This document shows positions 35,872 through 61,359 of a DNA stretch of 64,000 bases, piece after piece. Every line of letters starts with the position of its first letter. Position 1 is the first letter of the stretch. Origin of the DNA: Microlunatus parietis (GTDB lineage Bacteria; Actinomycetota; Actinomycetes; Propionibacteriales; Propionibacteriaceae); the NCBI RefSeq assembly GCF_013407955.1, contig NZ_JACCBU010000001.1:1488001-1552000 (forward strand). The letters run 5' to 3'. The translations under genes and the position numbers were made by a program. The notes under the pieces are model-generated. The model was given only the letters and a program-made list of their open reading frames with translations. It ran no database searches and was not told the DNA's origin.

Positions 35872-35980
35872 CGTGTGACGAGTACCAGCGTTCAGCCCCG
35901 GCTTGCTGGTCGGCAACCCTCCTCCGCGGCGGGGTGCCCCGGGTGAACACACGGCCACCCCTGGCAAGCGCGGGCCGAAG
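35872..35980 (+). promoter_or_regulatory. SAM-IV-type S-adenosylmethionine riboswitch
   Basis: A near-verbatim match to the actinomycete SAM-IV core: closing stem CGTGTG (35872-35877) with CACACG (35948-35953); inside it ACCAGCG...CCCCGGCTTGCTGG, CGGCAACCCTCC and GGGGTGCCCCGGGTGA; then a 3' arm with GGCAAGCGCGGGCC. It sits 44 nt upstream of a cysteine desulfurase-like gene, as expected for sulfur-metabolism control. High SAM should lower expression of that gene. Confidence 0.88.
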
Positions 35981-36023: not shown

Positions 36024-37388
36024 ATGTCCGTCGTCACCGAAGCCCGTACCGCCGACGACCCGCGGCCTCAGCCGGCCATTCCCGCCCTGCGTACGGTCAG
36101 CGGCGCCGGCCTCGCGGTCCCGCTGGTGAACGGCAGGACGACGCCGTACGTGAACCTCGACTACGCCGCCAGCGCGCCGGCCCTGACCGAGGTGCTGGAC
36201 GAACTCGGGCGGGCGCTGCCCTACTACGCATCCGTGCACCGCGGCGCCGGCTACGCGTCGGCGGCCAGCACGACCGCGTACGAGCAGGCCCGCCGGACCG
36301 TCGCCACGGCGACCGGGGCCCGGGCCGACGACCACGTGATCTTCACCCGCAACACCACCGACGCCCTGAACCTGCTGGCCCGGGCGGTCCCGGCCGACCT
36401 CGACGTGGTCTGCCTCGACATCGAGCACCACGCGAACCTGCTGCCCTGGCAGCAGCGCGGCGCGACCGTGATCACCGCCCGGCCGACCATCGCCGAGACG
36501 CTCGAGCTGATCGCCACCGAGCTCGCCCGGCCGGAAGTCGGCCTGCTGGCGATCACCGGCGCCTCCAACGTGACCGGCGAGACGCTGCCGCTGGACCGGA
36601 TCGCCGACCTGTGCCGGCGGACCGGGACCCGGCTCGCCGTCGACGGCGCCCAACTGGTCCCGCACCGTGACGTGGACCTGGCCGGCACCGGGATCGACTA
36701 CCTGGCCTTCTCCGGCCACAAGACCTATGCCCCGTTCGGCGCCGGGGTCCTGATCGGCCGGCCCGACTGGCTGGACGCGGCGCCGCCCTACCTGGCCGGC
36801 GGCGGTGCGGTCCGCCGGGTCCGTACCGACGACGCGGAGTGGGCCACCGGCCCGGCCCGCCACGAGGGCGGCACCCCGAACGTGCTCGGCGCGGTCACCC
36901 TGGCCGCCGCCTGCCGCACCCTGTCCGGCCTCGGCCGGCTGCGCCGGGACCGGCATGAGCGGGCGCTGACCGAACGACTGCGGGCCGGCCTCTTGGACGT
37001 GCCGGGCGTCAGCCTGCTGAGGATCTTCGAGGACAGTACGGACACCGTCGGCATCGTCGCGTTCACCGTGGCGGGGTTCGATGCGGGGCTGGTCGCGGCC
37101 TATCTGTCGGCGGAGCACGGGATCGGCGTCCGGGACGGCAAGTTCTGCGCGCATCCGCTGCTGAACCGACTCGGCTGCGCCGACGGCGCAATCCGGGTCA
37201 GCGTCGGCCTCGGCTCCTCCTCGGCCGATATCGACGCGCTACTGGCCGGCCTGCGCCGGCTGGTCGAGGACGGGCCGGGGTGGAACTACGGCGACGTGGA
37301 CGGGCGGATCCAACCGGTGCCCGACCCCCGCCCGGCGCCGGACTGGCTGCCCGAGCTGGAGACCGGCGGCGCCGGCTGCCGAGGCTGA
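36024..37388 (+). CDS. cysteine desulfurase-like PLP enzyme (aminotransferase class V)
   Basis: 454 residues with GAGGAG upstream. YVNLDYAASAPALTEVL, IEHHANLLPWQQRGA, the PLP Asp/Gln in LAVDGAQLVPH, the Schiff-base Lys in FSGHKTYAPFGAG and the catalytic Cys in RDGKFCAHPLL give the complete SufS/CsdA-type site. It could release sulfur or selenium from (seleno)cysteine. The SAM riboswitch upstream ties it to sulfur amino acid recycling rather than to iron-sulfur assembly. A long C-terminal tail after the fold is unusual. Confidence 0.9.
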   Translation: MSVVTEARTADDPRPQPAIPALRTVSGAGLAVPLVNGRTTPYVNLDYAASAPALTEVLDELGRALPYYASVHRGAGYASAASTTAYEQARRTVATATGARADDHVIFTRNTTDALNLLARAVPADLDVVCLDIEHHANLLPWQQRGATVITARPTIAETLELIATELARPEVGLLAITGASNVTGETLPLDRIADLCRRTGTRLAVDGAQLVPHRDVDLAGTGIDYLAFSGHKTYAPFGAGVLIGRPDWLDAAPPYLAGGGAVRRVRTDDAEWATGPARHEGGTPNVLGAVTLAAACRTLSGLGRLRRDRHERALTERLRAGLLDVPGVSLLRIFEDSTDTVGIVAFTVAGFDAGLVAAYLSAEHGIGVRDGKFCAHPLLNRLGCADGAIRVSVGLGSSSADIDALLAGLRRLVEDGPGWNYGDVDGRIQPVPDPRPAPDWLPELETGGAGCRG

Positions 37389-37399
37389 GCCCCAACGCT

Positions 37400-37458
37400 C
37401 CCTGAGCTTGTCGAAGGGCAAGGCACGACCTGGCTTGGCCCTTCGACAGGCTCAGGGC
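37400..37458. terminator. inverted pair of CCCTTCGACAGGCTCAGG repeats
   Basis: CCCTGAGCTTGTCGAAGGGC (37400-37419) and its near-complement at 37439-37458 can fold into a stem of about 20 bp with a loop of about 20 nt. It lies exactly between two converging genes, so a bidirectional terminator role is likely. One more copy of the half-site lies at 21625. Confidence 0.6.
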
Positions 37459-44516: not shown

Positions 44517-45155
44517 GTGCCCGATTGGTTCCCGACGAACGTCGCCGACGTGGTGGTCTTCGCGCCGCTGCGGATCGCGTTCCTGATCATCGTCGCGCTC
44601 GTCATACGTTATGTAGCGCACCGGTTGATCGACCGTTCGGTTCGCAAGTCGATCAATGCGACGCCGAAGCAGCGCAACCGGGCGATCGAGGCGCTGACGG
44701 TGCCGGCCCGGCTGCCGGCGGAGCGGCGGGCGCAACGGATCCAGGCGCTGGGGTCGCTGACCAAGAGCGTCACCACCGTCGTGATCTTGGTGATCACGGT
44801 GATCATGATCTTGACCGAGCTCGGCTTCAACGTGACGACGATCATCGCCGGCACGTCCTTGATCGGCGTCACGTTGGCCTTCGGCCTGCAGAACATCGTC
44901 AAGGACTTCCTGTCCGGCGTCTTCATGCTCATCGAAGATCAACTCGGCGTCGGCGACTTCGTCGATCTGGAGAAGGCTTCCGGCACGGTCGAGGAGATCG
45001 GGCTCCGGGTGACCCAGTTGCGCGACGACGACGGCACGGTCTGGTACGTCCGCAACGGCGAGGTGCTCCGCGTCGGCAACTACTCCCAGGGCGGGCCCGG
45101 CCGGCCGCCGGAGCCCGCCGAGGCGGAGGCCGATCAACCGGACGAGGCGACGTAG
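44517..45155 (+). CDS. small MscS-family mechanosensitive channel
   Basis: 212 residues from GTG. Helices APLRIAFLIIVALVIRYVAH and TTVVILVITVIMILTELGFN, then the pore helix TTIIAGTSLIGVTLAFGLQN followed by IVKDFLSGVFMLIEDQLGVG are the MscS core. The beta domain is short (GTVEEIGLRVTQLRDDDGTV). It releases solutes on hypo-osmotic shock. The last residues overlap the antisense end of the lantibiotic exporter gene by 22 nt. A GGAGG lies about 20 nt upstream, which is far. Confidence 0.9.
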   Translation: MPDWFPTNVADVVVFAPLRIAFLIIVALVIRYVAHRLIDRSVRKSINATPKQRNRAIEALTVPARLPAERRAQRIQALGSLTKSVTTVVILVITVIMILTELGFNVTTIIAGTSLIGVTLAFGLQNIVKDFLSGVFMLIEDQLGVGDFVDLEKASGTVEEIGLRVTQLRDDDGTVWYVRNGEVLRVGNYSQGGPGRPPEPAEAEADQPDEAT

Positions 45156-46852
45156 CGGTCCGCCGAAGCCGGTGGCTGCCAGAAGCCGATCAGGTCGCGA
45201 TACAGGGGCGATCGCTGCAGCAGCGAGTCATGATCACCGAGTACGGTGCGTTCGCCGTCCAGGACCAGGATCCGCTTGGCCCGCAGCGCCGAGGTCATCC
45301 GGTGCGCGACGACGATCAGCGGCCCACGCGCCGCGAAGGCCTCCTCGGCGCGGCGTTCCGCCTCGGGATCGAGATGACAGGTCGCCTCGTCCAGGACGGC
45401 CAGCGGCGCCGGTGACAGGTAGGCCCGGACCAGGGCGATCAGCTGGCGTTCGCCGGCCGACAGGTCGCCCGGGCGCAGCTCGGCTGCGAGCCCGCCGAGC
45501 CGGTCGACCAGCTCCGTCGCGCCGAGCTCCGCCGCCGCGGCGGCAACCTGGGCCGGTGTCGCCTCCGGCCGCAGATAGGCCAGATTGTCGATCAGCCGGC
45601 CCGAGAACACGTACGCCTCCTGCGGGATCAGCACCCGGCAGCCGGCCAGCAGGGCGGGCGATACGGCGGCCGGCGGCACACCGCCCAGCATCACCCGGCC
45701 GTCCGTCGGCCGGAGCAGACCGCAGGCGAGCGCCGTGAGCGTCGACTTGCCGGCCCCGCTGGGTCCGACCACGGCGAGATGATCACCGGGTCCGACCGTC
45801 AGGTCCAGCCGGTCCAGGATCGGCTCGGCGTGCGGCCCGTACGCAAAGGTCACCCGGTCGAAGATCAACTCCGGATCACCGGGCACCTGTTCGGCGGGAC
45901 GCGCCGGCGGCGGGCCGGCGTCGAGGATGCGGCCGAGCGTCACCACGTAGCGCAGCCCGCTGTCGCCCAGGGCGGACAGCATGGTGTTCAGGGCCGGCTG
46001 CAGCCCGAGCAGCACGTACGTCAGACCGCCGAGCAGAACGCCCGGCGTGAGGCCCCGCGAGACCAGCCAGGGCCCGGCTCCGAGCAAGATCAGCAACGGC
46101 AGCCAGCCGCCGACGGCGAAGCAGGCCATCCGCAGCGCGGCGATCCGGGCCTGCGCCCGCTCGGCCCGGGCGTGCGCCTCGGTCGGGGCACCGACCAGGT
46201 CGGCCGCGTAGTCCTCGGCGCCGGAGCCGGTCACGTCCCGGACCGCGGCGAAGACCGAGCCGGCGGCGGTGGTCAGGTCCTCGTCGGCCTGGATCGAACG
46301 CAGCAGCCGGCGGGCCGCCGGGCCGAGGACAGCGAACGAGGCCGTGAACCCGAGCAGGAACGGGACCAGGACGAGGACGGCGATCAGCGGATCCAGCGAC
46401 AGCAGCCCGGTCAGGACGCCGAGCACGGTGATCACGAACCCGCGCACGGACAGCACCAGGCCGCCGAAGGAGTCCCGGACGATCTCCACCTGCCGGTTCA
46501 GCCGGGCCACCGCTCCGCCGTCCGCGCGACCGGCCGAAGACCGGGCCAGGGCGCCGGCCACCACGTGCCGTACCAGGTCGTCCCGGAACGGCTCGACCAG
46601 CCGGCCGAGGCTCCGGTACACCTGGCGGGCACCGACGCCGCCGACGCCCGCGGCGACGACCAGCCCGGCCAGCCAGGCCAGGCCGAGACCCAACTGCCCG
46701 GCCAGGAACGCGTCGGTGGCGTGCGCGACGGCGACCCCGAACAGGGCGGTCGGCAGGATCTCCGGCACCGACCAGAGCAGCAGCCCGGCCAGCCGGCGGC
46801 GGGCCGAGCGGCGGCCCAGGGCGGCGATCCCGTACCGCAGTTCCCGCATCAT
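45134..46852 (-). CDS. ABC exporter half, lanthipeptide cluster (subunit 2)
   Basis: 572 residues: an N-terminal six-helix membrane domain and a C-terminal ATPase. Walker A VVGPSGAGKSTLTAL, Q-loop LIPQEAYVFSG, signature DLSAGERQLIALVRAYL, Walker B LAVLDEATCHLD with the catalytic Glu, and H-loop VVAHRMTSA. The companion subunit lacks the catalytic Glu, so this one supplies the working Walker B. Last gene of the operon; its ATG overlaps the previous gene's stop. Likely role: exporting the mature peptide, as RamA/RamB do for SapB. Confidence 0.88.
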   Translation of the reverse strand: MMRELRYGIAALGRRSARRRLAGLLLWSVPEILPTALFGVAVAHATDAFLAGQLGLGLAWLAGLVVAAGVGGVGARQVYRSLGRLVEPFRDDLVRHVVAGALARSSAGRADGGAVARLNRQVEIVRDSFGGLVLSVRGFVITVLGVLTGLLSLDPLIAVLVLVPFLLGFTASFAVLGPAARRLLRSIQADEDLTTAAGSVFAAVRDVTGSGAEDYAADLVGAPTEAHARAERAQARIAALRMACFAVGGWLPLLILLGAGPWLVSRGLTPGVLLGGLTYVLLGLQPALNTMLSALGDSGLRYVVTLGRILDAGPPPARPAEQVPGDPELIFDRVTFAYGPHAEPILDRLDLTVGPGDHLAVVGPSGAGKSTLTALACGLLRPTDGRVMLGGVPPAAVSPALLAGCRVLIPQEAYVFSGRLIDNLAYLRPEATPAQVAAAAAELGATELVDRLGGLAAELRPGDLSAGERQLIALVRAYLSPAPLAVLDEATCHLDPEAERRAEEAFAARGPLIVVAHRMTSALRAKRILVLDGERTVLGDHDSLLQRSPLYRDLIGFWQPPASADRYVASSG

Positions 46853-48498
46853 CCGAACACCTGCCGGTAGGCCGGGTCGGACCAGAGTTGATCATGGCGA
46901 CCGAAACCGCGCAACCGGCCGGACTCCAGCCACACCACCAGGTCGGCCCGGGCCGCGGTGCCGAGCCGGTGCGTGACGATCAGCCGAGTCCGGCGGTCGT
47001 CCGCGGCGAGCAGCGACCGGCCGATCTGCGCCTCGGTCATGGAGTCGAGGCTCGACGTGGCATCGTCCAGCACCAGCAGCCGGCCGGCCGGCCAGGCCCG
47101 GGCGAGGCCGAGCCGCTGCGCCTCGCCGCCGGATAGCGGCGCGACCGCGAGCGGCGTCCGGTAGCCCTCCGGCAGCCGGCTGACGAAGGCGTGCGCGTTG
47201 GCCGCGGCGGCGACGGTCGCCGCCGCCGGCTCGGTACGGCCGACCAGAATCGACTCCTCGACGGTCCGGCCGAACAACGCCGGGCGCTCGAACGCGCAGC
47301 CGACCGCGCGCCGCAGCTCGGACCGGCTGAGTTCGGCCAGCGGCACCCCGTCCAGCAGGATCCGGCCGGTGTCGGGGTCGCGAAGCCGCGCCGCGAGGGC
47401 CGCCAGCAACGACTTGCCCGATCCGCTCGGCCCGACCACGGCCACCCGGGCGCTACCGGGAAGATCAAGATCGAGTTCCGCCAACCGGTCGGCGCCGCCC
47501 GCTGTGACGCCGACCCCGCGGAACTGCAGCCGCCCGGAGCCGGGCCCAAGCGTCCTGGTCCCATGGCCGAGCGGCGCGATCGCCAGCACCGCGTCGGTCC
47601 GGCGGATGCCGGCGCGGGACCGGGCCAGCTCGCCGAACATTCCGGTCAGGCCGCCGAGCCCGGCCCCGAGCACCGCGTACTGCGCCGCGGCGAACAGGTC
47701 GCCGGGGCTGATCACCCCGCCGGTCAGCCGGACGCCGCCGACGGCCAGCACCGCGACCAGGATCAGCGGTCCGACGATCGCCGCCTGCGCCCCGGACCGG
47801 GCCAGCACGTCCCAGGTCAGCAGGCCGTGCCGGTGCAGCGTCCGCAGCGGCCGCAGGATTCGCCGTTGCTCGCGGTCCAGGGTGCCGGCCGCGGCGACGG
47901 TACGGATTCCGGCGAGCGTCTCGGACAGCAGCGCGGCCAGCCGGCCCTGCGTCTCGGCGTAGGCCTGGCTGAGCTCGGTCGTCCGCAGCGTGAACAGCCA
48001 GAGCACCGCGATCACCAGCGCCACCCCGGCGACGAAGGCCACCGCGAGCCACGGGTCGATCAAGATCAACAACACCAGGCTGCCGACCGGCGGGATCACC
48101 GCGGCCAACGCCGCCACTGCCGCGGGCCCGGCCCGGGCGGCGTCCGCCGCGTCGCCGGACACCCGGCTGACCAGGTCGCCGGACTCGTACGGCCGGGACC
48201 CCTCCGGGCCGCCCGCCACCACCCGCCGCACCAGCCGGTGCCGCAGCCACGCCGTCGTCCCGGCCACGCAGGCGGTGTCGGCGAAGGCGTCGACCAGGTC
48301 ACAGACCACGGCCACCGCGATCAGTCCGCCGGCCAGCGCCAGCCAGCCGCCGACCGAGCTTCCGGCCACGATCGCGTCCACCGCACGTCCCAGCACGGAC
48401 GGCAGCGCCAGCGCGACCAGGCTGCCGGCCAGCGCCGCGACACCGATCACGGGCAGCCAGCCCCGACCGTGCCGGACGACCGAGCCGAAGCCGCTCAT
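46849..48498 (-). CDS. ABC exporter half, lanthipeptide cluster (subunit 1)
   Basis: 549 residues from the ATG at 48498, overlapping the peptidase stop (ATGA). Six membrane helices then ATPase: Walker A VVGPSGSGKSLLAAL, signature PLSGGEAQRLGLARAW, H-loop IVTHRLGTA. Walker B is LLVLDDATSSLD, with Asp in place of the catalytic Glu, and the Q-loop region reads CAFERPALFGRT, with Glu where Gln is usual. One degenerate ATP site is typical of heterodimeric ABC exporters. Confidence 0.88.
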   Translation of the reverse strand: MSGFGSVVRHGRGWLPVIGVAALAGSLVALALPSVLGRAVDAIVAGSSVGGWLALAGGLIAVAVVCDLVDAFADTACVAGTTAWLRHRLVRRVVAGGPEGSRPYESGDLVSRVSGDAADAARAGPAAVAALAAVIPPVGSLVLLILIDPWLAVAFVAGVALVIAVLWLFTLRTTELSQAYAETQGRLAALLSETLAGIRTVAAAGTLDREQRRILRPLRTLHRHGLLTWDVLARSGAQAAIVGPLILVAVLAVGGVRLTGGVISPGDLFAAAQYAVLGAGLGGLTGMFGELARSRAGIRRTDAVLAIAPLGHGTRTLGPGSGRLQFRGVGVTAGGADRLAELDLDLPGSARVAVVGPSGSGKSLLAALAARLRDPDTGRILLDGVPLAELSRSELRRAVGCAFERPALFGRTVEESILVGRTEPAAATVAAAANAHAFVSRLPEGYRTPLAVAPLSGGEAQRLGLARAWPAGRLLVLDDATSSLDSMTEAQIGRSLLAADDRRTRLIVTHRLGTAARADLVVWLESGRLRGFGRHDQLWSDPAYRQVFG

Positions 48499-50510
48499 GG
48501 CCTGGTCAAACCCGTATGAGCACCGAGGAAGGCGAGCACGTCGGCGGCCAACGCGACGCCGCCGCTGACCGTACCCCCGGTGTGGGACTCGCCTTCGCTC
48601 GTCCGCAACAGGACCGGACCACCGGTCGTCGCGTGCTGCAGCGCGGCGCACATCTTGCGGGCGTGCAGCGGGTCGACCCGCGCATCGTCGGCGGAGACCG
48701 TGAACAGCACGGCCGGATAGGCGACGCCCTCCCGGACCCGGTGATACGGCGAGTACGCGAGCAGCCAGCCGAGCTGCTCGGGGTCGGCCGCCGAACCGTA
48801 CTCGGGGACCCAGGCCGGCCCGTGCCCGGACAATTCGTAGCGGACCATGTCCAGCACCGGCGAGGAGCAGACCGCCGCCGCGAACAGCTCCGGCCGCCGG
48901 GTCAGCACGGCGCCGACGGTCAGCCCCCCGTTGGACTCGCCGAAGGCCGCCAGCCGGTCCGGCGTCGTCCAGCCGTCCATGATCAACTTCTCGGCGGCGG
49001 AGGTGAAGTCGTCGAACACGTTCTGCTTGGCCGCGCCGGCGCCCGCCCGGTGCCAGGCCTCGCCCCGCTCCGAGCCGCCGCGGGTCCGGACCGCGGCGAA
49101 GACACCACCGGCCTCGACCCAGGCCAGCGAGAAGGCCGAGTAGGTCGGGATCAGCGACTGACCGAAGCCTCCGTAGCCGTAGAGGATGGTCGGCCGGGCC
49201 GGCTGCGGCCCCGGCCCGGGCGGTGCATGGACGGTCAGCCCGACGTCGGTGCCGTCGGCGGAGACGCAGCTGAGGCGCCGGAGCTCGACCGGCGGCGTCC
49301 GGTCCAGACCCGGCGGCCGGGCCCAGAGCTCGGATCGCCCGGTGCGGGCGTCGAACCGGTGGACCGCCGTCGGGGTGACGCTGTCGCAGTAGTCGTACCA
49401 GGCCTCGGGACCGCCCTCGGGCCGGGTGCTGATCGACCCGACCGTGCCCGCGCCGGGCAGCTCGACCTCGCCGACCCGGGCGCCGGACTCGCGATCATGG
49501 AGGCCGAGTTCGGCGATCCCGTCGACCGTGCGCCCGACCAACAGCAGCGGCCGCGAAGCGCTGTCCAGGAAGGCGATGTTGCTGAGCGGAGCCTCGGGGA
49601 GCTCGGGCACCAGCTCGCGCCAGTGCTCGGCGTGCGGCCGCTGCGGGTCGGCGACACAGATCCGGCCGGCGTCCGCGGCCAGCGTCGTCGCGACGTACAG
49701 CCGGCCGTCGGCGGCCACGGTGAGCATGGTCCTGGCGTCGATCCCTTCCTGGACCGGGATCAGGGCGGGCCGGTCCAGGCGGCCGTCGGCGAGGTCGGCC
49801 AGCCACACGTCATTGCGCGTCCCGTACCCCTTCGAGACGACCAGCCAGCGGCCGTCCCGACTCAGTTCCAGTCCGTACGCCGCCGGGTCGCCGAGCACCA
49901 CGGCCTCGTCATCGGTGCCGAGCCGATGCAGCAGCAACCGGCCGTTCCGGACGTAATAGAAGGTACGGGAATCCGGCAGCCAGCCGACCGGCGCGTGGCG
50001 GCAGCCGTCGAGCGGCCGGTCGAGCTGGTCCCCGGTGCCGACGTCCAGCAGGTGCAGGGTCCCGTCCTCAGCGCCCCCGTGCGCAAGCTGGTACGCCAGC
50101 ACACCGCCGTCCGGGCTGACCTGCCAGGTGTCCAGCCGGGTCCGGCCGGACGGATCGAGCGCCACCGGGTCCACCAGGATCCGCTCGCCGGCCGGGTCCA
50201 CCATGATCAACACCGGCTGTTCCCGACCGGCGTCGCGCCGTTCGAAGAACCTGCGGTCGCCGCGCCAGGTCGGCACGGTGATCATTCCGACCGCGCTCAG
50301 TTCGGCCACCCGCCGCCGGAACCGGTACCGGTCCGGCAGCGCTGCGGCATGGGCGAACCAGAGCTGATCCTGGGCCGCGACCCAGCTTCGCGTTTGCTGA
50401 TTCGCCGTATCCTCGAGCCAGCGGTAAGGGTCCGCCACCCGGCGACTGTGCAGGTCGTCGACGACGGTTCCTCGTTCGGCCTCGGGGTAGCTGCGCGTCT
50501 GCAGATGCAT
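48495..50510 (-). CDS. lanP: prolyl oligopeptidase, probable leader peptidase
   Basis: 671 residues, S9A family: N-terminal propeller (about 75-400) and C-terminal hydrolase. Catalytic triad: Ser in AAFGESNGGLTVG (about 523), Asp in TVSADDARVDP, His in EGESHTGG. The usual GGSNGG is GESNGG here. Some class III lanthipeptide clusters use a prolyl oligopeptidase to cut the leader (for example flavipeptin FlaP). The precursor here has Pro12 in the leader and Pro35 in the core, so Pro-directed cutting near the leader end is plausible. The gene sits between precursor and exporter. Confidence 0.85.
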   Translation of the reverse strand: MHLQTRSYPEAERGTVVDDLHSRRVADPYRWLEDTANQQTRSWVAAQDQLWFAHAAALPDRYRFRRRVAELSAVGMITVPTWRGDRRFFERRDAGREQPVLIMVDPAGERILVDPVALDPSGRTRLDTWQVSPDGGVLAYQLAHGGAEDGTLHLLDVGTGDQLDRPLDGCRHAPVGWLPDSRTFYYVRNGRLLLHRLGTDDEAVVLGDPAAYGLELSRDGRWLVVSKGYGTRNDVWLADLADGRLDRPALIPVQEGIDARTMLTVAADGRLYVATTLAADAGRICVADPQRPHAEHWRELVPELPEAPLSNIAFLDSASRPLLLVGRTVDGIAELGLHDRESGARVGEVELPGAGTVGSISTRPEGGPEAWYDYCDSVTPTAVHRFDARTGRSELWARPPGLDRTPPVELRRLSCVSADGTDVGLTVHAPPGPGPQPARPTILYGYGGFGQSLIPTYSAFSLAWVEAGGVFAAVRTRGGSERGEAWHRAGAGAAKQNVFDDFTSAAEKLIMDGWTTPDRLAAFGESNGGLTVGAVLTRRPELFAAAVCSSPVLDMVRYELSGHGPAWVPEYGSAADPEQLGWLLAYSPYHRVREGVAYPAVLFTVSADDARVDPLHARKMCAALQHATTGGPVLLRTSEGESHTGGTVSGGVALAADVLAFLGAHTGLTRP

Positions 50511-50545
50511 GATGAGTTGCCCCTCCTACCGGACGTCCGCTGAGC

Positions 50546-50578
50546 GGTCCTGGACGGAACCGAGTTCCGTCCAGGACC
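50546..50578 (-). terminator. strong intercistronic hairpin after the precursor gene
   Basis: GGTCCTGGACGGAAC (50546-50560) and its perfect complement (50564-50578) form a 15-bp stem with a 3-nt loop, between the precursor stop and the peptidase start. No T tract follows on the minus strand. A partial terminator or mRNA stabiliser here would yield excess precursor over the enzymes, as in other RiPP operons. Confidence 0.7.
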
Positions 50579-50602
50579 CTCCCTTTACCGATCGGCCAGC
50601 GA

Positions 50603-50737
50603 TCAGTGACAGAGCAACAGGCTGAGTCCACTCGGACGGTAGGAACCGCAACCGAGCAGCGTCAGCGACGAGCCGCCGCCCTTGCCACCGCCGTAGCCGC
50701 CGGGGGCGTCGAGCCCCTGAAGGTCGAGAAGCGCCAT
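50603..50737 (-). CDS. lanA: class III lanthipeptide precursor, SapB-like
   Basis: 44 codons, too short for ordinary gene calling, with an excellent AAAGGAGGTGA ribosome site. The leader begins MALLDLQGLD; the (I/L)LDLQ box is the class III synthetase recognition motif (SapB has LFDLQ). A Gly-rich stretch precedes the core. The core contains two labionin/lanthionine motifs Ser-x-x-(Ser/Thr)-x-x-x-Cys: SSLTLLGC (Ser23, Thr26, Cys30) and SGLSLLLC (Ser36, Ser39, Cys43), separated by GSYRP and ending in His44. The same two-motif plan occurs in SapB. It lies 15 nt after the synthetase gene. Confidence 0.9.
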   Translation of the reverse strand: MALLDLQGLDAPGGYGGGKGGGSSLTLLGCGSYRPSGLSLLLCH

Positions 50738-50752
50738 GTGTTTCACCTCCTT

Positions 50753-53323
50753 TCAGTTCTCGTCGGTTCGGGTTCCTGGAGCGGACCCGAAGAACGGGAG
50801 CTGCACCGGTTCGTGGTGCAGCGCGGCCCCCAGCGCGAGCAGGACGCCCGCCGAACCGGTGGCCAGATCCATCGAGAGCCGGAGCAGCCGGTCGCCCGGG
50901 AAGGCCAGCCCGCCCCGGTGCGGCACCGCGTGCCAGGCCAGCCCCCGGATCAGCCGCTCGGTGACCTCGTCCGGACCGCCGGTCCGGTCGTCGGCTGCGG
51001 CCATGATCAAACCGGCCCGGCCGGCGAAGAGGCCCGGCTGGACGAAGTACTCCGACCGGGTGACCCGCTGCAGCGACCGCAACGCCTCGGCCAGGTCCGG
51101 GTCCGGGCGGTGCTGCAGGTACCGCCGCAACACGACGGCGATCCCGACCGAGCCTTCTTCGAGGTACGGCAGCGTCCGCCAGCCCTGGCTGACCTGCCGG
51201 GTCCCGTAGTCGTCGAGGACGCAGCGGCGCAGATCCTGGCGGAGCGCGATCTCGGCGAGTTCGAGCAGGCCGGCGTCGCCGTTCTGTTCGTACCCGCGAA
51301 GAAAGAGCAGCGCCGCCCCCGACGACCCGTGCAGCAGGCCGGCCCGCGGATTCCCTTCGCCGCTGATCTCCGGTACGTCGTCCGGGCCGCCGAGCCGGTC
51401 GGCGACGAAGTCGATCACCCGGGTCGCGTTGGCCAGGAACGAGGTCTCGCCGGTCCGGTGCCAGAAGTGCAGCAGGTTCAGGCCGATCCCGGCCAGCCCG
51501 GAGCGCAGGCCGAACTCGAGGCCGTCGACCGGCTCGGTGAGGCTGAGCTCGATCACGTCCAGCGCGTCCTGCCGGTGACCAAGATCATCCAGCACGTACG
51601 CCACGCCGGCCCGGCCGTCGTAGAAGCCGGTCCCCTTGACCGGTCCGAGCGCCCGGCTGCGCAGCCACGTCTCGTACTCTTCGAAGCGGCCGGCCCCGGT
51701 GTGGTGCAGCGCGTACAGCACGCCGGCGGCGCCGTGGGCGAAGCCGAGCCCGCCGCCGGGCGTGAACTGAGCGATGTCGCCCGGGAACAGCCGATCGTCC
51801 CGGTCCGGCGTCGCGCTGCCGACGATGGCCCGGCTGAGCGACTCCCGGACCTCCGGCCAACGGCCGCGGCCGGGCAGGGCCGGCCAGGTTTCCGCATCCT
51901 CGGAATCCTCGGCGGCCTCGCCGACGATCGTCTGGACCGCCCGCTCCAACCAAGGCCGCGGCACCGGGAAGGTCTCCGCGATCAGGTCGGCCAGCTGGGC
52001 CGCCTTGCCCGGGTGGAACGGCAGCAGCATCGTCGTCTCCGGTGCGAAGATCCCGATCCGCATGCAGGCCAGCGCGTAGTCGTCGACAGCGACACCCTGC
52101 CGGTCCGGCGGCGCCGAGTAGCCGGGATGGGCCAGGGCCGACCGGGCCTGCTCCTCCACCGCGGTGGCCACCTCGAAGTCGATCAGCACGAGCCGGTCCT
52201 CGGCGCCGATCAGCACGTTGTCGGGGTGCAGGTCGCAGAACACCACGCCCCGGCCGTGCAGGGCGCGGACCGCGGTCTCGACCCGGTCCAGGACCGAACG
52301 GGCCCACGCCGCGTAGGCCGCCAGGTCGGCCGGAGCCGGGTCCGGCCGGGTGAGCGGATAGTCGTTGACGATCAGCCGTTGCAGTGGGTTCGCGTCGACG
52401 AACTCCTCGACCAGGAAGCGGTGCTCGCCCAGCGTGAAGCTGTCCAGCACGGCCGGCACCTCGTCGATCCCGGCCAGCCGCTCGAGGATCGCCTGCTCGT
52501 GCTCGATCCGGGCCACCGCGTCGCGGTTGTGCACATCGAGCCCGGCGTGCGGCCGGCCCTCCTTGAGCACGACCAGCCGGTCGCTCGTCTTGTGCCGGCC
52601 GAGGTAGACCCCGCCGCCGTTGGAGAACTGGATCACGCCGTCGATCTGGTACGGAAGCTCGGTGGTCGTGACGGCGTTGCGGGCGGCCAGATGCGGCTCC
52701 AGGAAGCTCGGCAGCGACGCCCACTCCGGCGGCGCGAAGACCGGTCGCCGGTTGTCCGGGACGAGCCGCCCGTCGGGATGCTCGACCGCCAGGACCCGCT
52801 GCCCGGAGTCAGAAAGGCAGTGCCGTTCGGCGAAGCCGCCGTACCGGACGTACAACGGGCCGTCGGCATAGCGAAGGTCGGATAAGACGTACGGACCGCG
52901 GACGCCGGCCAGGAGATGATTGAGCTCCTTGAGAACCAACTCGAGTTGGGCGTCGTCGGCCGGATAGATCGTGACCAGCTTTCCACTCGCCTCACGGTCC
53001 GCCGACTTCGAGTTGTACATGACGACGACGGGTTCGTTACGAAGGAATTTGAACGGCACGCCCCGTTCGAGGCAGTAATCCCAGACGACCTGCAGCGTCC
53101 GGTCGACGTCGGCCAGACAGGACGAGACGTGGATCTTCCAACCCTGGTTGGGAACCGGCGCCTCCGCCGGCGCGTAGTTCATCCAGACGTCGGTCGCCTC
53201 GCGTTCCCACCCGGCCGGCAGCGGCCGCGTGCACAGCTCGAAGTCGGGATGTTCTGCGTCACGATTCGTCGGTGTGTCATAGAAGAATCGGTCAGCAAGG
53301 CAATACAGAACATACTCATCCAT
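50753..53323 (-). CDS. lanKC: class III lanthionine synthetase (LanKC)
   Basis: 856 residues from the ATG at 53323 (MDEYVLYCLADRFFYDTP), preceded by GGGTGGGGG. N-terminal lyase-like part with FKFLRNEPVVVMYNSKSADR and KLVTIYPADDAQLELVL; central kinase with VVFCDLHPDNVLIG and LVLIDFEVA (DFE in place of DFG); C-terminal cyclase-like part with GAAGVLYALHHTG, GLAGIGLNLLHFWHRTG and RAGLLHGSSGAALLFLRGYE but no clear zinc-ligand triad, as in class III. It phosphorylates Ser/Thr, eliminates phosphate and forms lanthionine or labionin rings in the precursor. Confidence 0.95.
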   Translation of the reverse strand: MDEYVLYCLADRFFYDTPTNRDAEHPDFELCTRPLPAGWEREATDVWMNYAPAEAPVPNQGWKIHVSSCLADVDRTLQVVWDYCLERGVPFKFLRNEPVVVMYNSKSADREASGKLVTIYPADDAQLELVLKELNHLLAGVRGPYVLSDLRYADGPLYVRYGGFAERHCLSDSGQRVLAVEHPDGRLVPDNRRPVFAPPEWASLPSFLEPHLAARNAVTTTELPYQIDGVIQFSNGGGVYLGRHKTSDRLVVLKEGRPHAGLDVHNRDAVARIEHEQAILERLAGIDEVPAVLDSFTLGEHRFLVEEFVDANPLQRLIVNDYPLTRPDPAPADLAAYAAWARSVLDRVETAVRALHGRGVVFCDLHPDNVLIGAEDRLVLIDFEVATAVEEQARSALAHPGYSAPPDRQGVAVDDYALACMRIGIFAPETTMLLPFHPGKAAQLADLIAETFPVPRPWLERAVQTIVGEAAEDSEDAETWPALPGRGRWPEVRESLSRAIVGSATPDRDDRLFPGDIAQFTPGGGLGFAHGAAGVLYALHHTGAGRFEEYETWLRSRALGPVKGTGFYDGRAGVAYVLDDLGHRQDALDVIELSLTEPVDGLEFGLRSGLAGIGLNLLHFWHRTGETSFLANATRVIDFVADRLGGPDDVPEISGEGNPRAGLLHGSSGAALLFLRGYEQNGDAGLLELAEIALRQDLRRCVLDDYGTRQVSQGWRTLPYLEEGSVGIAVVLRRYLQHRPDPDLAEALRSLQRVTRSEYFVQPGLFAGRAGLIMAAADDRTGGPDEVTERLIRGLAWHAVPHRGGLAFPGDRLLRLSMDLATGSAGVLLALGAALHHEPVQLPFFGSAPGTRTDEN

Positions 53324-53357
53324 GCAACCCCCACCCGAAATAACTACCCCCAGGCAA

Positions 53358-53386
53358 AGAGTAGGAGCGGTTCGAATAGGTGTCAA
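53358..53386 (-). promoter_or_regulatory. promoter of the lanthipeptide operon
   Basis: On the minus strand, TTGACA (53386-53381) and TACTCT (53363-53358) are separated by exactly 17 bp. Transcription would start near 53351, about 27 nt before the lanKC ATG. The surrounding 150 bp are markedly less GC-rich than the rest, typical of a regulated promoter. Confidence 0.75.
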
Positions 53387-53556
53387 TCAGTTCTGCGAAT
53401 TGCGTTGAAACTCGTTGAGCGGGTCACATTTCACGGTTCATAAGAAGTACCGATGTAGGGAATTCGGTCCGAAGATGATCTTGACGAGCCGGTGCGATCA
53501 GCGCTCGGCGATCACCCGATCCGCTGCCAGGCAAGGATGATCAACGCCGAACCTGA

Positions 53557-54459
53557 TCATGAACCGACCGCGCGTCCGAGGAAGCCGGACAGCCGGGCGG
53601 CCACCTCCCCGGCCGGCTGGTACGGCAGCGAGTGGTGCGACGCGTGCCCGATCACGGCCACCTCGGCACTCGGCAGCCGGCGCAGCGCCGCCAGCCGGGT
53701 CCGCCGGGCGTCGTTCACCCGGGACATCCCGGCCAGCATGATCAGGGTCGGCGCGGTGAGCTCGCGCAGCTCGGCGGCGCTCGGCCGGGGCTGCCGCGGC
53801 GGCAGTTGCCGGGGCACTCCGGTGCCGGCCGCGAACAGCTCCAGCCAGTCCTCGTCGACCGGCACGCCGGTCGACTCCCAGCGCACCAGGGCCCGGGCCC
53901 GGCCGGGCGTGCTGGCGAAGGTCAGGGCGAACTCGCGGCTCCGGTAGCCGGCCCGGGGACGGCCGAAGCAGTCGACCGGGTCCAACAGCGCGAGGGCGGA
54001 GACGCGGTCCGGCGCGGCGAGGGCGTACCGCAGCGCGAGCCAGCCGCCGCTGCCGTGCCCGGCCACTGCGGCCCGGTCGACGCCGCAGCCGTCGAGGACC
54101 CCGGTCAGCCAGTTCAGCAGGTCGGCGCCGGTCCGCAGCGGCAGGTCGGCACCGCCGAGGCCGGCGTCGCCGAGCCGGTCGATCGCGAAGATCCGGTAGC
54201 GCCGGGCGAGCAGGCCGGCGAGGGCGTACCAGATGGTCGAGGTGGCGCCACTGCCGTGCAGCAGCACCAGCGGCCGGGCGTCGGGCGGTCCAGCCACGGT
54301 GACGGCGGTGCGGCCGAAGCGGGAGTCCAGGTGTTCGGTCGTCGCCGCCGGCCAGCGGTCCAGCATGGCGTGGTAGCGGTAGAGGAATCGGCGGTACGGG
54401 TCGCCGCGGTCCGGGTAGCCGCGCAGCGTCGGCCAGCGCGTCGTGGGTGGCAGTTCCAT
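53557..54459 (-). CDS. alpha/beta hydrolase
   Basis: 300 residues from the ATG at 54459. Oxyanion loop RPLVLLHGSGATSTIWYALA, nucleophile elbow AAVAGHGSGGWLALRYA (Ser), acid in LDPVDCFGRP or later, and His in VIGHASHHSLPYQPAGEVA. The substrate is unknown. It is on the same strand upstream of the lanthipeptide operon but has its own gap of 170 bp containing the lan promoter, so co-transcription is doubtful. Confidence 0.82.
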   Translation of the reverse strand: MELPPTTRWPTLRGYPDRGDPYRRFLYRYHAMLDRWPAATTEHLDSRFGRTAVTVAGPPDARPLVLLHGSGATSTIWYALAGLLARRYRIFAIDRLGDAGLGGADLPLRTGADLLNWLTGVLDGCGVDRAAVAGHGSGGWLALRYALAAPDRVSALALLDPVDCFGRPRAGYRSREFALTFASTPGRARALVRWESTGVPVDEDWLELFAAGTGVPRQLPPRQPRPSAAELRELTAPTLIMLAGMSRVNDARRTRLAALRRLPSAEVAVIGHASHHSLPYQPAGEVAARLSGFLGRAVGS

Positions 54460-54544
54460 GATCACGATCATGAAACGCCGACGTCCGCCGGCGCATCGGC
54501 CGACGGACGTATTGCTGCTACGGCAGCGAGCGTAAGGCGAGGCC

Positions 54545-54973
54545 CTACTGGACCAGGGTCGCCTCGAGGGTGATCTCGGTCCCGGCCAGCGCCTGCGACA
54601 CCGGGCAGTTGGCCTTGGCGGTCTCGGCGGCCTCCTGGAACTGCTCCGCGGTCAGGCCCGGCACGGCGGCCTTCACGGTGAGCTTGATCCCGGTGATCCC
54701 GGTGCCCGGCACGAAGGTCACATCGGCGGAGGTGTCGACGGTCGTGGGCGGGGTGCCGGCGCCGGCCAGGCCGTGCGACAGCGCCATCGAGAAGCAGGTG
54801 GAATGCGCGGCGGCGATGAGCTCCTCCGGGCTGGTCTTGCCGTTCGCCTGCTCGGCCCGGGACGGCCAGCTGACCGGATAGGTGCCGATCCCCGACGAGG
54901 CGAGCTCGACGGTGCCGGAGCCCTCCATCAGGGAACCCTCCCAGTGGGCGTTGGCCGTGCGTACGGTAGCCAT
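54545..54973 (-). CDS. osmC: OsmC-family peroxide reductase
   Basis: 142 residues from the ATG at 54973 with AGGAGA upstream. It reduces organic hydroperoxides using paired Cys residues: AAAHSTCFSMALSHGL and ANCPVSQALAG supply the conserved Cys pair. The N-terminal ATVRTANAHWEGSLMEGSGT and TSPEELIAAAH are typical OsmC. Divergent from the truncated haemoglobin gene, a natural partner in oxidative or nitrosative stress. Confidence 0.93.
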   Translation of the reverse strand: MATVRTANAHWEGSLMEGSGTVELASSGIGTYPVSWPSRAEQANGKTSPEELIAAAHSTCFSMALSHGLAGAGTPPTTVDTSADVTFVPGTGITGIKLTVKAAVPGLTAEQFQEAAETAKANCPVSQALAGTEITLEATLVQ

Positions 54974-55080
54974 GACGATCTCCTTCTCGGGGGATGTGTG
55001 CGTCTGTGGTGTTCGCCGCTTATCTTGCCAGGCGCCCGCGGGGCCGGCTCCGGTGGGAAGGTGAGGAACAATGGGTGGCG

Positions 55081-55521
55081 ATGACGCACACTGAGGACCG
55101 CCAGTCGTTCTATGACGAGATCGGCGGACACGAGACCTTCGTCGCCCTGACCAAGCGGTTCTACGAGGGCGTGGCCGACGACCCGCCGCTGCGCGAGATG
55201 TATCCGGAGGAGGACCTCGGGCCCGCCGAGGTACGGCTCCGGATGTTCCTCGAGCAGTACTGGGGCGGCCCGACCACGTACAGCCAGGAGCGCGGCCACC
55301 CGCGACTGCGGATGCGGCACGCCCCGTTCGCCGTGACACCGGAACAGAAGGACCGCTGGCTCAAGCACATGCGCGACGCCGTCGACTCGCTGCACCTGAC
55401 CGAGGAGCAGCACGCGATCCTCTGGGAGTACCTGGAGCGGGCCGCCCAGTTCATGGTCAACACGTTCGACAGCAACGGCCCGCCGGCGATGCCGGGGCTG
55501 ACCATCCAGCCCCGGCCTTAG
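55081..55521 (+). CDS. glbO: truncated haemoglobin, group II (GlbO)
   Basis: 146 residues from the ATG at 55081 (a GTG at 55075 is better spaced from GAGGA). [60 protein letters not shown] and the C-terminal [14 protein letters not shown] are the group II pattern, with the proximal His in RMRHAPFAV and the distal-pocket Tyr/Trp. It binds oxygen and may scavenge NO or peroxides. Divergent from osmC. Confidence 0.93.
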
Positions 55522-58898: not shown

Positions 58899-59504
58899 TC
58901 AGATCCACCCGTGGTGCTGGGCCACCTGGATCGCGGCGGCCCGGTCGGAGACCTCGAGCTTGGTCATGATCGCCGCCGCATAGTTGCGTACGGTTCCGGC
59001 CGACAACCCCACCCGGCGGGCGATCGCGGCCGGCGTCCCGCCCTCGGCCAGCGCGGCCAGCACCTCCAGCTCCCGCTCGGTGAGCGGGCAGTCCGGGCTG
59101 ATCAACAACTCCGCGGCCAGTTCCGGGTCGACGTACCGCGCTCCCTCGTGGACCCGGCGGATCGCCTGCGCCAGGGCGCCCGCCGGGGTGCCCTTGGTGA
59201 CGAAGCCGGACGCGCCGGCCCGCAGCGCCCGGCGCAGATGGGCCGGCCGGCCACGCCCGGTCAGGATGATCACCCGGCAGGACGGCAGCGCCCGGCCGAG
59301 CTCGGTGCTGACGGCCATCCCGTCCAGCTTCGGCATGTCCAGGTCGACCACCGCGACGTCCGGCCGATGATCAAGAGCGGCCTGCACCGCCTGCCGACCG
59401 TCGCTCGCCACCGCGACCACCGACAGGTCCGGCTCGAAGTCGAGCAGGGTGGCCACGGCGTCCCGAATCAAGGCCTCGTCGTCGGCCAGCAGAAGCTTGA
59501 TCAT
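58899..59504 (-). CDS. NarL/FixJ-family response regulator
   Basis: 201 residues from the ATG at 59504. Receiver: LLLADDEALIRDAVATLLDF, phospho-acceptor Asp in VAVVDLDMPKLDGMAV, Thr/Lys in VIILTGRG and GFVTKGTPAG. LuxR-type HTH: LTERELEVLAALAEGGTPAA then IARRVGLSAGTVRNYAAAIM. Its start overlaps the histidine kinase stop by 4 nt (ATGA). DesR-like in size. Confidence 0.94.
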   Translation of the reverse strand: MIKLLLADDEALIRDAVATLLDFEPDLSVVAVASDGRQAVQAALDHRPDVAVVDLDMPKLDGMAVSTELGRALPSCRVIILTGRGRPAHLRRALRAGASGFVTKGTPAGALAQAIRRVHEGARYVDPELAAELLISPDCPLTERELEVLAALAEGGTPAAIARRVGLSAGTVRNYAAAIMTKLEVSDRAAAIQVAQHHGWI

Positions 59505-60667
59505 GGCTGCCCAGTCTGGCACGGCACGGTCGCCTCGAAGACGAACCGATCACCCTCCCGGCCGGCCCGGACCGACCCACCGACCTCGGCGAACCGTTCC
59601 CGCATCCCGGTCAGGCCGGTGCCCGTCCGGCCCGGGCCGGTGCTCGGTTCGGCGGCGTCGTTGATCACCCGGAGCTTGAGGTCCCGGCCGGCCCGGTCCA
59701 GCGTGATCACGCATTCGGCGCCCCGGCCGTGGCGCAGCACGTTCGTGGTCGCCTCGCGGAGCGCGATCGCCAGCAGCCGGGACAGCGCGGCGGAGTCCGG
59801 GCGGGCCGCGAGCTCCATCCGGTACGGGATCCCGGCGGCGTCGAGGGCGTCCCCGACGGCCACCGCCTGTTGATCAAGGTCGATCCCGCGAAAGCCGTCC
59901 ACCGTGGACCGCAGTTGCACCAGCGCGTCAGCGGTGAGCCCGCGGAGCTGCCCGGCCTCGGCGGCGGCCCGGCCGGGATCGCTCTGCCGCAGCCGTTCCA
60001 CCAGTTCCGCCTTCAGCGCGATCACCGACAGCGAGTGACCGACCACGTCGTGGATGTCCCGGGCGAACCGCAGCCGCTCCTCGGCCACCGCGAGCCTGGC
60101 CCGGGCCTCCCGGCCGGCCCGGAGTTCGCCGACCAACCGCCAGAGGACGTACGGCAGGCCGCACATGAACACCACCGTCGCGCCGACCGCGAGCGCCGTG
60201 AGCCCGTACTGGAGCGGAGCGCCGGCCCAGGCCCCGATGGCGAGAACGGCGACCAGCAGGGCCAGCCAGCCGCCGACCAGCACCGCCGGCCGTCGGTACA
60301 GCAGTGGAAGCGATCCGGCCACGGTGCCGCCGAGCCAGGCCCAGGTGGACCACGCCGCGCCGCCGAGCGGCGCCACCAGCGGGATCGAGACCAGCAGCGC
60401 GAGACCGAGAACGACATCGGTCGGGACCGGTCGCCCCGGTCCCCCGGCCGCCACAGCGTCGTGCCTCAGCGACCGGTACAGCGCGGCGGCGAGGGCCGCG
60501 GTGACCAGGGCGATGCCGATCGCGCCGAGCACCGCGCGGACCGGATCGGCCTCTCGGGTGAGCGCGATGCCCGGCATGATCGCCGCCGTCGCCGGTGCCG
60601 CGAGCAGCGCGACCAGGGCCACGGCCCGGGCCCGGCGGACCGGCCGGTCGGCGTCGTCGTACCCCAT
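59501..60667 (-). CDS. sensor histidine kinase (HisKA_3 type)
   Basis: 388 residues from the ATG at 60667, with GGAGGAGGA upstream. Five or six N-terminal helices (ALVALLAAPATAAIMPGIAL through VGATVVFMCGLPYVLWRLVG) form the sensor, with no large extracellular domain. Phospho-acceptor FARDIHDVVGHSLSVIALKA; ATPase N-box ALREATTNVLRHG; GTGLTGMRERFAEVGGS. It phosphorylates the adjoining regulator. It is divergent from a four- to six-helix membrane protein that is a likely target. Confidence 0.93.
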   Translation of the reverse strand: MGYDDADRPVRRARAVALVALLAAPATAAIMPGIALTREADPVRAVLGAIGIALVTAALAAALYRSLRHDAVAAGGPGRPVPTDVVLGLALLVSIPLVAPLGGAAWSTWAWLGGTVAGSLPLLYRRPAVLVGGWLALLVAVLAIGAWAGAPLQYGLTALAVGATVVFMCGLPYVLWRLVGELRAGREARARLAVAEERLRFARDIHDVVGHSLSVIALKAELVERLRQSDPGRAAAEAGQLRGLTADALVQLRSTVDGFRGIDLDQQAVAVGDALDAAGIPYRMELAARPDSAALSRLLAIALREATTNVLRHGRGAECVITLDRAGRDLKLRVINDAAEPSTGPGRTGTGLTGMRERFAEVGGSVRAGREGDRFVFEATVPCQTGQP

Positions 60668-60693
60668 CGTCGCGTCCTCCTCCTCGCCGCCAC

Positions 60694-60722
60694 CATACCC
60701 CGGCCGGGTATGTGCACTGCAC
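60694..60722. promoter_or_regulatory. inverted repeats between divergent HK and membrane genes
   Basis: CATACCC-CGGCC-GGGTATG (60694-60712) is a perfect 7-bp dyad, directly followed by GTGCACTGCAC (60712-60722). LuxR-type response regulators bind such dyads; this may be the site used by the neighbouring regulator. Confidence 0.45.
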
Positions 60723-60780
60723 GGATTTCGATGACATTCCGACCAGTGCTTCGGCACCCGACCCCTTCCAGGCTGAAGCC

Positions 60781-61359
60781 ATGACAACCGTTCCCACATC
60801 ATCCACCGACAATCCCGGCCCCCTGCCGGCTGTCCTGGCCCGCTGGCCCACCCTGGTCGGCCTGGCAGCCCTGATCGCCACCTCCGCGGGCGGCGTCGAC
60901 GCCCATCTGGCGGCGACGATCATCATGATCGCGGCCCTCTGCTACCTGGCCGCCGCCGCGGCCGGCCGGCCCGCGGCCGCCTGGCTCACCATCCCGGCCG
61001 GCGTCGCCCTGGTGACCCTCGGCATGCTGACCGCCCTGGACGCCGTCCTGCTGCTGGTCCTGGCCGCCGCGGCCCTGGTGATCTTCGGGCTGGTCCGGCG
61101 ACCCCGCTCCGGCTGGCCCGAACTGGGCCTCCAGGCGGCCGGCTTCGCGGGCTTCACCACCCTCGGCCTGGTCGCGATGATGGTCGATCCCGTCCTGGCC
61201 GCCCACCTCGCCGCCCTGGCCGCGATCGGCCACGGCGTCTGGGATCTGGTGCACCATCGGCGGAACCGGGTCGTCGGCCGTTCCCTCGCCGAGTTCTGCG
61301 CCGTCCTCGACCTCGGCCTCGGCACCGTGATCTTGATCGTCACCTGGCTCGCCCGCTGA
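60781..61359 (+). CDS. multi-pass membrane protein, probable target of the two-component system
   Basis: 192 residues. Helices LVGLAALIATSAGGVD, AATIIMIAALCYLAAAAAG, WLTIPAGVALVTLGMLTAL, AVLLLVLAAAALVIFGLV, GFAGFTTLGLVAMMV and LDLGLGTVILIVTWLA, all tightly packed with little loop. No family function recognised; HGVWDLVHHRRNRVVGRSLA is a distinctive loop. Divergent from the sensor kinase gene across 113 bp. Confidence 0.7.
   Translation: MTTVPTSSTDNPGPLPAVLARWPTLVGLAALIATSAGGVDAHLAATIIMIAALCYLAAAAAGRPAAAWLTIPAGVALVTLGMLTALDAVLLLVLAAAALVIFGLVRRPRSGWPELGLQAAGFAGFTTLGLVAMMVDPVLAAHLAALAAIGHGVWDLVHHRRNRVVGRSLAEFCAVLDLGLGTVILIVTWLAR

Follow-up and report, generated by a model that had tools for sequence, protein, structure and literature searches.

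A probable flavipeptin-type class III lanthipeptide operon in Microlunatus parietis and a candidate shared stem-loop after its precursor gene

This report concerns a predicted class III lanthipeptide operon on the minus strand of a 64 kb stretch of DNA from Microlunatus parietis (the window, meaning that stretch at its full length). The described system that it most resembles is the flavipeptin (fla) cluster of Kribbella flavida, which has the same gene order of LanKC, precursor, prolyl oligopeptidase (POP) and two ABC genes, and likewise the precursor leader and ring motifs, the leader Pro and a stem-loop after the precursor. FlaP, the POP of that system, was characterised in 2013 and, in the section of the review cited here, is described as efficient only on ring-bearing FlaA, cutting after Pro(-12), with metalloproteases likely removing the remainder (PMC10885120). 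In the cited passages of a second paper FlaP-like proteases are placed beside class III precursors in Kribbella and Streptomyces, and FlaA homologs in Amycolatopsis and Jiangella (PMC8960859). Two further class III types resemble the window, by description, in carrying a protease: the NAI-112 type with its dedicated in-cluster protease AplP (as described in part of PMC10885120), and the LanPB clusters (family III 3, from Firmicutes), whose protease is of the prolyl oligopeptidase family (as described in part of PMC7268733). AplP is, however, an M1 Zn metallopeptidase and belongs to another protease family than the window POP, whereas the LanPB clusters are set apart, again by description, by their Firmicutes hosts, an extra CAAX protease and another precursor family. 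The ram (SapB) and amf (AmfS) operons of Streptomyces share with the window LanKC, a small two-ring precursor with an LxLQ leader, and ABC half-transporters.

Five intact genes lie in one direction in the window, in the order LanKC, 44-residue precursor, POP, ABC half-transporter 1 (ABC1) and ABC half-transporter 2 (ABC2). A sequence-only reading of the same DNA had proposed a complete class III lanthipeptide operon in this order, and all five genes were recovered with family models in agreement. The LanKC gene (50753–53323, minus strand) encodes a class III lanthionine synthetase (lyase-kinase-cyclase) of 856 aa, which scored 1082.8 bits against the class III model NF038151 (cut-off 575) and contains RamC_N, Pkinase and LANC_like domains, so that lyase, kinase and cyclase-like parts are all present. 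Residues 42–841 were aligned with a solved LanKC-like chain (9wop), in which the kinase motifs correspond as VLKE/IIKE, CDLHPDN/GDLQPAN and LIDFE/LIDFE (window/9wop); we take these motifs to have their usual kinase roles. The LanKC start is most likely ATG 53323. The operon start proposed earlier, TTG 53386, is less likely, that TTG opening the TTGACA hexamer of a promoter-like TTGACA-17-TACTCT (53358–53386, minus strand), which was found by inspection and pattern search 34 nt 5' of the ATG.

The precursor gene (50603–50737, minus strand, 44 aa) starts 15 nt past the LanKC stop, the last base of which is overlapped by a putative strong ribosome-binding site, AAAGGAGGTGA (50743–50753, minus strand). 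The peptide scored 55.3 bits against NF033212 (cut-off 25) and 54.3 bits against PF19402 (cut-off 24.3), which are SapB/AmfS and RamS models, and can provisionally be divided into a leader (MALLDLQGLDAP), a Gly-rich linker (GGYGGGKGGG) and a core (SSLTLLGCGSYRPSGLSLLLCH). The leader contains LLDLQ, which is of the LxLQ type, and Pro12; the core contains two S-x2-(S/T)-x3-C ring motifs, SSLTLLGC and SGLSLLLC, which fit the class III pattern S-x2-(S/T)-x2-5-C, and ends in Cys-His, as do all 44 precursors from distinct POP-adjacent loci. Searching a very large protein set for relatives sharing exact words gave three matches: one was the window protein itself in a form with an extended start, and the others were relatives of environmental origin (86 and 82%).

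The POP gene (48495–50510, minus strand) encodes a FlaP-like protein of 671 aa that scored 196.8 bits for Peptidase_S9_N and 163.5 bits for Peptidase_S9 and aligns over residues 7–662 with the prolyl endopeptidase 2bkl. In this alignment the Ser of GESNGG, the Asp of DDARVDP and the His of ESHTGG fall on catalytic residues, and the Trp of AWVPEYG, near the proline pocket, is kept; these catalytic and pocket roles are our assumption from general knowledge of the family. ABC1 (46849–48498, minus strand) has membrane and ATPase domains (PF00664 77.8 bits, PF00005 70.7 bits); its open reading frame (ORF) opens at 48651, and ATG 48498 is probably the start, judging from its ATGA overlap with the POP stop. 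ABC2 (45134–46852, minus strand) scored 71.3 bits for PF00005 and 22.2 bits for PF00664, the latter being under the cut-off of 28. The ABC1 stop and the ABC2 start overlap in the same way (46852/46849), and the two ATGA overlaps therefore suggest that translation of POP, ABC1 and ABC2 is coupled. The scores against NF038151, NF033212, PF19402 and the two S9 models exclude a chance identification of these predicted proteins.

By analogy with the described systems, LanKC would dehydrate Ser and Thr and close two Cys-based rings in the precursor, which by the predicted chemistry would be labionin or lanthionine. Once the rings have formed, as reported for FlaP, leader cleavage after Pro12 would likely fall to the operon's own POP; another host peptidase would then trim the Gly-rich stub left by this cut, and export would likely be through the ABC pair. 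With four dehydrations the calculated monoisotopic, uncharged masses would be 4189.09 Da for the full peptide, 2951.45 Da following the cut at Pro12 and 2204.12 Da for a core that begins at Ser23. Ten residues separate Pro12 from the first ring Ser23, which makes it Pro(-11) if the core begins at Ser23; in one precursor of genome G036, which we take to be Kribbella flavida DSM 17836, 11 residues separate Pro and the first ring Ser, i.e. Pro(-12).

A LanKC scan of named genomes gave 22 loci, of which 21 were Kribbella-type (62–67% identity) and one was a distant myxobacterial locus (27%). All 21 Kribbella-type loci have a near full-length LanKC match, the order LanKC, precursor, POP, ABC1, ABC2, and a homologous precursor ORF of 43–46 aa, so that neither a broken LanKC nor an unconserved precursor, which together would have spoken against the operon, was encountered. 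One of the 21 (L029) is labelled Streptomyces sp. SID13031; its LanKC falls inside the Kribbella group and the genome is likely mislabelled. The same gene order was found in both G036 clusters, in 3/3 f23 loci and in one f4 POP locus. Against the two G036 clusters the window LanKC is 66 and 64% identical, the POP 57 and 59%, and the precursor 71 and 80%. The gene arrangement was considered as a new one and this was ruled out, since it matches the flavipeptin type of Kribbella. Of the earlier comparison with ram/amf plus a protease, the gene order thus stands, whereas the protease is a known feature of the fla type and not a novel insertion; likewise, the suggestion of a new peptide stands for a sequence variant, whereas a new type is not at hand, the fla type having already been reported. 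What is new is a sequence variant of the fla type in a new host group, and the surprise is small.

The window nevertheless differs from the fla clusters in its promoter region and host family, and its linker, with Lys and Tyr, lacks His. Linkers between Pro and core in Kribbella-type and f20 precursors are often His-rich (GYGHGGHHHGG), and the two G036 precursors differ from each other in the linker. Several loci read P-GGH, in which Pro cleavage would leave an N-terminal Gly-Gly-His, presumably a possible Cu/Ni site. The second ring is SGLS in the window and in the environmental precursor P0003, as against SN(L/V)S in 43 of the 44 distinct POP-adjacent loci.

Between the precursor and POP genes, 24 nt past the precursor stop, lies a perfect stem-loop of 15 pairs (50546–50578, minus strand; GGTCCTGGACGGAAC-TCG-GTTCCGTCCAGGACC), which was detected by a stem scan, by folding and by compensatory changes in relatives. 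The region folds at -48.3 kcal/mol, compared with -36.1 ± 3.6 kcal/mol for 200 shuffles, one of which was as low (z -3.4); the window as a whole contains 7 stems that score at least 12. Counting distinct loci only, and taking a score of 10 or more as a strong stem, such a stem follows the precursor in 43/44 POP-adjacent loci (the exception being L066) and the presumed last precursor in 24/28 other class III loci, that is, loci with no POP within about 1.5 kb. In three of the four misses (L093, L097, L100) the precursor counted as last was in fact followed by another. For L093 and L097, a model built from the POP-adjacent stems (R2) located a stem 7 nt past the true last precursor, and in L100 a weak stem was detected by an earlier model (R1) alone (E 0.078, 32 nt past the last precursor); in L105 no stem was found after the precursor. 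None of the 8 non-last precursors is followed by a strong stem. Across the 21 full operons a strong stem follows LanKC in 0, the precursor in 21, POP in 3, ABC1 in 1 and ABC2 in 0.

When 39 distinct POP-adjacent stems were aligned with MAFFT, 98.6% of cells could pair and 10 of 13 pairs had changes on both sides; cells with changes on both sides numbered 52, compared with 10.0 ± 5.2 in shuffles (0/500 as high), a result that is not a probability, as the structure was derived from the same stems and the sequences share ancestry. In the other group R2 matched 15/29 loci at E ≤ 0.1 (9 at E ≤ 0.01), and all 15 matches sit 7–70 nt past the last precursor. Whole genomes were then searched with R2 at E ≤ 0.2, 150 candidates per genome being scored (of about 14500 first-look candidates in the host). 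Under these settings R2 matched a single place in the host, the operon site (on both strands), and likewise the operon site alone in G508; in G048 it matched the two clusters without any further site, in G036 the two clusters plus two other sites, and in two operon-free congeners nothing. The hairpin was also considered as a frequent genomic repeat, which was rejected, the operon site being the sole host match among the 150 scored candidates. The hairpin is not exclusive to these operons, however: the cluster ranked first in G560 and G033 with other sites also matched, in G047 R2 matched only other sites and not the cluster hairpin, one of the hairpins elsewhere in G036 outscored the second cluster's own, and stray matches were found inside LanKC of L093 and of G036. 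No Rfam match to the stem-loop was obtained at E ≤ 1.

From these data we propose tentatively, at somewhat less than an even chance, that actinobacterial class III operons share an RNA stem-loop after the last precursor, as yet undescribed, which would set the ratio of enzyme and precursor to protease and exporter and would travel with the operon. The best-fitting role would be to stabilise the 3' end of the LanKC-precursor mRNA, or to end the transcript in part; it would likely mark the boundary between a LanKC-precursor segment with high expression and a protease-exporter segment with lower expression. That the stem-loop is instead an ordinary transcription terminator or a DNA operator with no special role is rather doubtful. 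In favour of this reading, the hairpin is palindromic and is sited past the end of a gene, comparable hairpins are present elsewhere in G560, G047, G033 and G036, and the covariation, which fits RNA or DNA, has no power to separate an RNA hairpin from a DNA palindrome. None of 67 stems, however, is followed within 8 nt by four or more T, so that a classical intrinsic terminator is unlikely and a U-tract terminator was rejected; same-strand protease and exporter genes continue past the stem-loop; in the full operons stems are concentrated after the precursor rather than after other gene ends; and loop length ranges between 3 and about 12 nt, which would be awkward for a dimeric DNA-binding protein and favours RNA. 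No description of a stem-loop in class III or ram/amf operons was found in the open-licence papers searched, which is a weak negative. The element is possibly an undescribed shared cis-element and is the part most worth following.

The second alternative concerns the function of the peptide, and holds that the operon is a morphogen operon of the ram/amf type, whose peptide works like SapB with the protease as an accessory. We regard this as unlikely. The precursor matches SapB/AmfS and RamS models, the LanKC-precursor-ABC-ABC backbone is common to both, sampled loci of the Streptomyces-like family f22 also have a stem-loop after the precursor, and certain class III peptides with two rings trigger the formation of aerial hyphae in streptomycetes (as stated in the cited passage of PMC13380574). 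The window LanKC is, however, about 40–52% identical to Streptomyces-type LanKC, compared with 62–68% to the Kribbella-type ones overall, and the LanKC tree places it with POP clusters, apart from the sampled f22 sequences; the ram/amf-type f22 loci have no POP within about 1.5 kb past LanKC (L128 was inspected further). In addition, ram/amf operons are known from the literature to have the regulator RamR and both f22 genomes searched have chaplins, whereas the chaplin model PF03777 gave 0 matches in the host (G000) and in three Kribbella-family genomes; as a control it gave 10 and 7 matches in the two f22 genomes and 5 weak matches, in one ORF, in one f20 genome. A direct SapB-chaplin partnership is therefore unlikely in the host. 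A hydrophobic surface-active or signalling peptide remains our likeliest guess, by analogy with the SapB and AmfS relatives.

No RamR-type regulator had been noted in the earlier reading, and none is present in the 8.46 kb block that carries the operon, as would be expected because ramR is reported only in streptomycetes in the part of PMC4255298 cited here. A LuxR-type response regulator (58899–59522) and a HisKA_3 kinase lie at 58899–60802 (minus strand), 5.6 kb upstream of LanKC; this stretch aligns with the operon-free congener and is therefore host backbone. Upstream of LanKC in 34 of the 44 POP-adjacent loci (among L009–L085), an element of the form CACT[AG][CT][GT]-N17-26-[ACG][ACG]GATG was found, 33 times at 55–91 nt before the LanKC match and once at 286 nt, and in 0/28 other class III loci; the loci used to derive the pattern are also those on which it was scored, and 3/880 composition-only shuffles match it. 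It is a candidate promoter or operator.

The host, as the sequence-only reading had also held, lies outside Streptomyces, and the question of how it obtained the operon was addressed by comparison with congeners and with wider samples. LanKC was found in 1/20 genomes of the genus, namely the host itself. The block (45116–53578, blastn) is absent from the syntenic locus (L158) of the congener that is nearest by these flanking genes (G004), where orthologs of the operon-flanking MscS (81%) and alpha/beta hydrolase (65%) genes lie side by side. Window positions 44555–45115 and 53579–55517 match L158 7845–7285 and 7109–5129, with 175 bp between the matches, and on both sides the flanks align in pieces of 77–86% DNA identity. 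In congeners G013 and G016 MscS lies beside OsmC with neither operon nor hydrolase, and in G019 MscS and OsmC lie apart. The 3' ends of MscS and ABC2 overlap by 22 nt, and the congener alignment stops inside the MscS gene; the last MscS codons therefore seem to derive from inserted DNA. Most simply, the block was likely gained in the window lineage, the other possibility being its loss in G004.

In an order-wide sample, with the two best candidates per genome scored, LanKC was found at E ≤ 1e-150 in 43/391 genomes, host included, 37 of the 43 belonging to family f2, which we equate with the Kribbella family since named loci fall among f2 (names for f4, f20, f22 and f23 are likewise provisional); in a class-wide sample it was found in 50/394 genomes. 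Two such LanKC genes (at least 63% identity) occur in 10 of the 37 f2 genomes (G036, G042, G048, G051, G066, G068, G070, G082, G097, G138), and in G076 the second copy is at 46%, the scoring being limited to two per genome. A quick tree was built from 72 distinct LanKC proteins, L030 and L042 being left out of it as of the distinct-locus counts; it placed the window as sister to 39 Kribbella-type sequences (SH-aLRT 99 for the window with the 39, and 88 for the 39). The operon was likely acquired by horizontal transfer from a Kribbella-like lineage. Ancestral presence in the order followed by loss in the congeners is quite improbable: several families within the order and the class do carry the operon, but its rarity in the genus, its concentration in f2, and the adjacency of MscS and OsmC without it in two further congeners disfavour vertical descent, because many losses would be needed.

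That the POP is a bystander, with an M1 (AplP-like) aminopeptidase from another locus removing the leader, is very improbable: several class III peptides are matured by AplP-type enzymes (as stated in part of PMC10885120) and the host has three M1-family genes, one of them within the window (at about 23.4–24.75 kb), but POP adjoins the precursor throughout the 21 named Kribbella-type loci, lies at the operon end in 4 of 5 f20 loci inspected over a longer stretch (the fifth having none within it), and FlaP has published activity on FlaA. POP and M1 may instead act in series, with POP first and M1 trimming afterwards, and the M1-family metallopeptidase gene in the window (about 23406–24752, plus strand) is one candidate for the enzyme that would remove what remains after the POP cut. 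Of the 28 distinct loci classed as having no POP, six were inspected further; four of the six have a POP past ABC2 and two have none within the stretch. The leader Pro, present in 44/44 distinct POP-adjacent loci, was tried as a predictor of an adjoining POP and ruled out, as it also occurs in 16 of the 28 other loci.

Taken together, the locus is very probably a flavipeptin-type class III operon in which LanKC forms the rings of the precursor, the operon's own POP trims the leader and the ABC pair exports the product, and which was likely transferred in. Several observations count against this view. The missing chaplins weaken the direct SapB analogy. Pro35, between the rings, would have to escape POP cleavage, and the leader Pro is found well beyond POP-adjacent loci, although 4 of those other loci carry a POP further on. 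The LanKC tree has no bootstrap and the program flagged the window branch as long, leaving its placement unsure, and at 62–68% identity the donor is not a sampled species. Finally, the CACT...GATG element is missing upstream of LanKC in the window, and a stricter sigma-70 scan calls no promoter above threshold, TTGACA-17-TACTCT included; regulation may therefore differ from that of the Kribbella-type loci.

Elsewhere in the window three further features were recorded: a SAM-IV riboswitch (35874–35976, plus strand; 97.8 bits, cut-off 38) 5' of a class V aminotransferase gene (36024–37388); a large RHS-repeat protein (26479–32232, plus strand) with DUF6531 and pretoxin-HINT domains in a polymorphic-toxin-like architecture; and a palindrome of 19 pairs (37400–37457), which is the strongest stem in the window by stem scan.

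No open-licence paper linking Microlunatus and lanthipeptides was found, a weak negative, and with this locus the range of FlaP-type class III biosynthesis grows by a host group outside those named in the cited passages. The clean empty site makes the transfer testable. As a natural variant of the protease-precursor pair, with a Lys/Tyr linker without His, an SGLS ring and a Pro between the rings, the locus bears on why the core is left uncut by the protease. The stem-loop, if confirmed, would offer a simple handle on the stoichiometry of class III operons and a marker for their short precursor genes.

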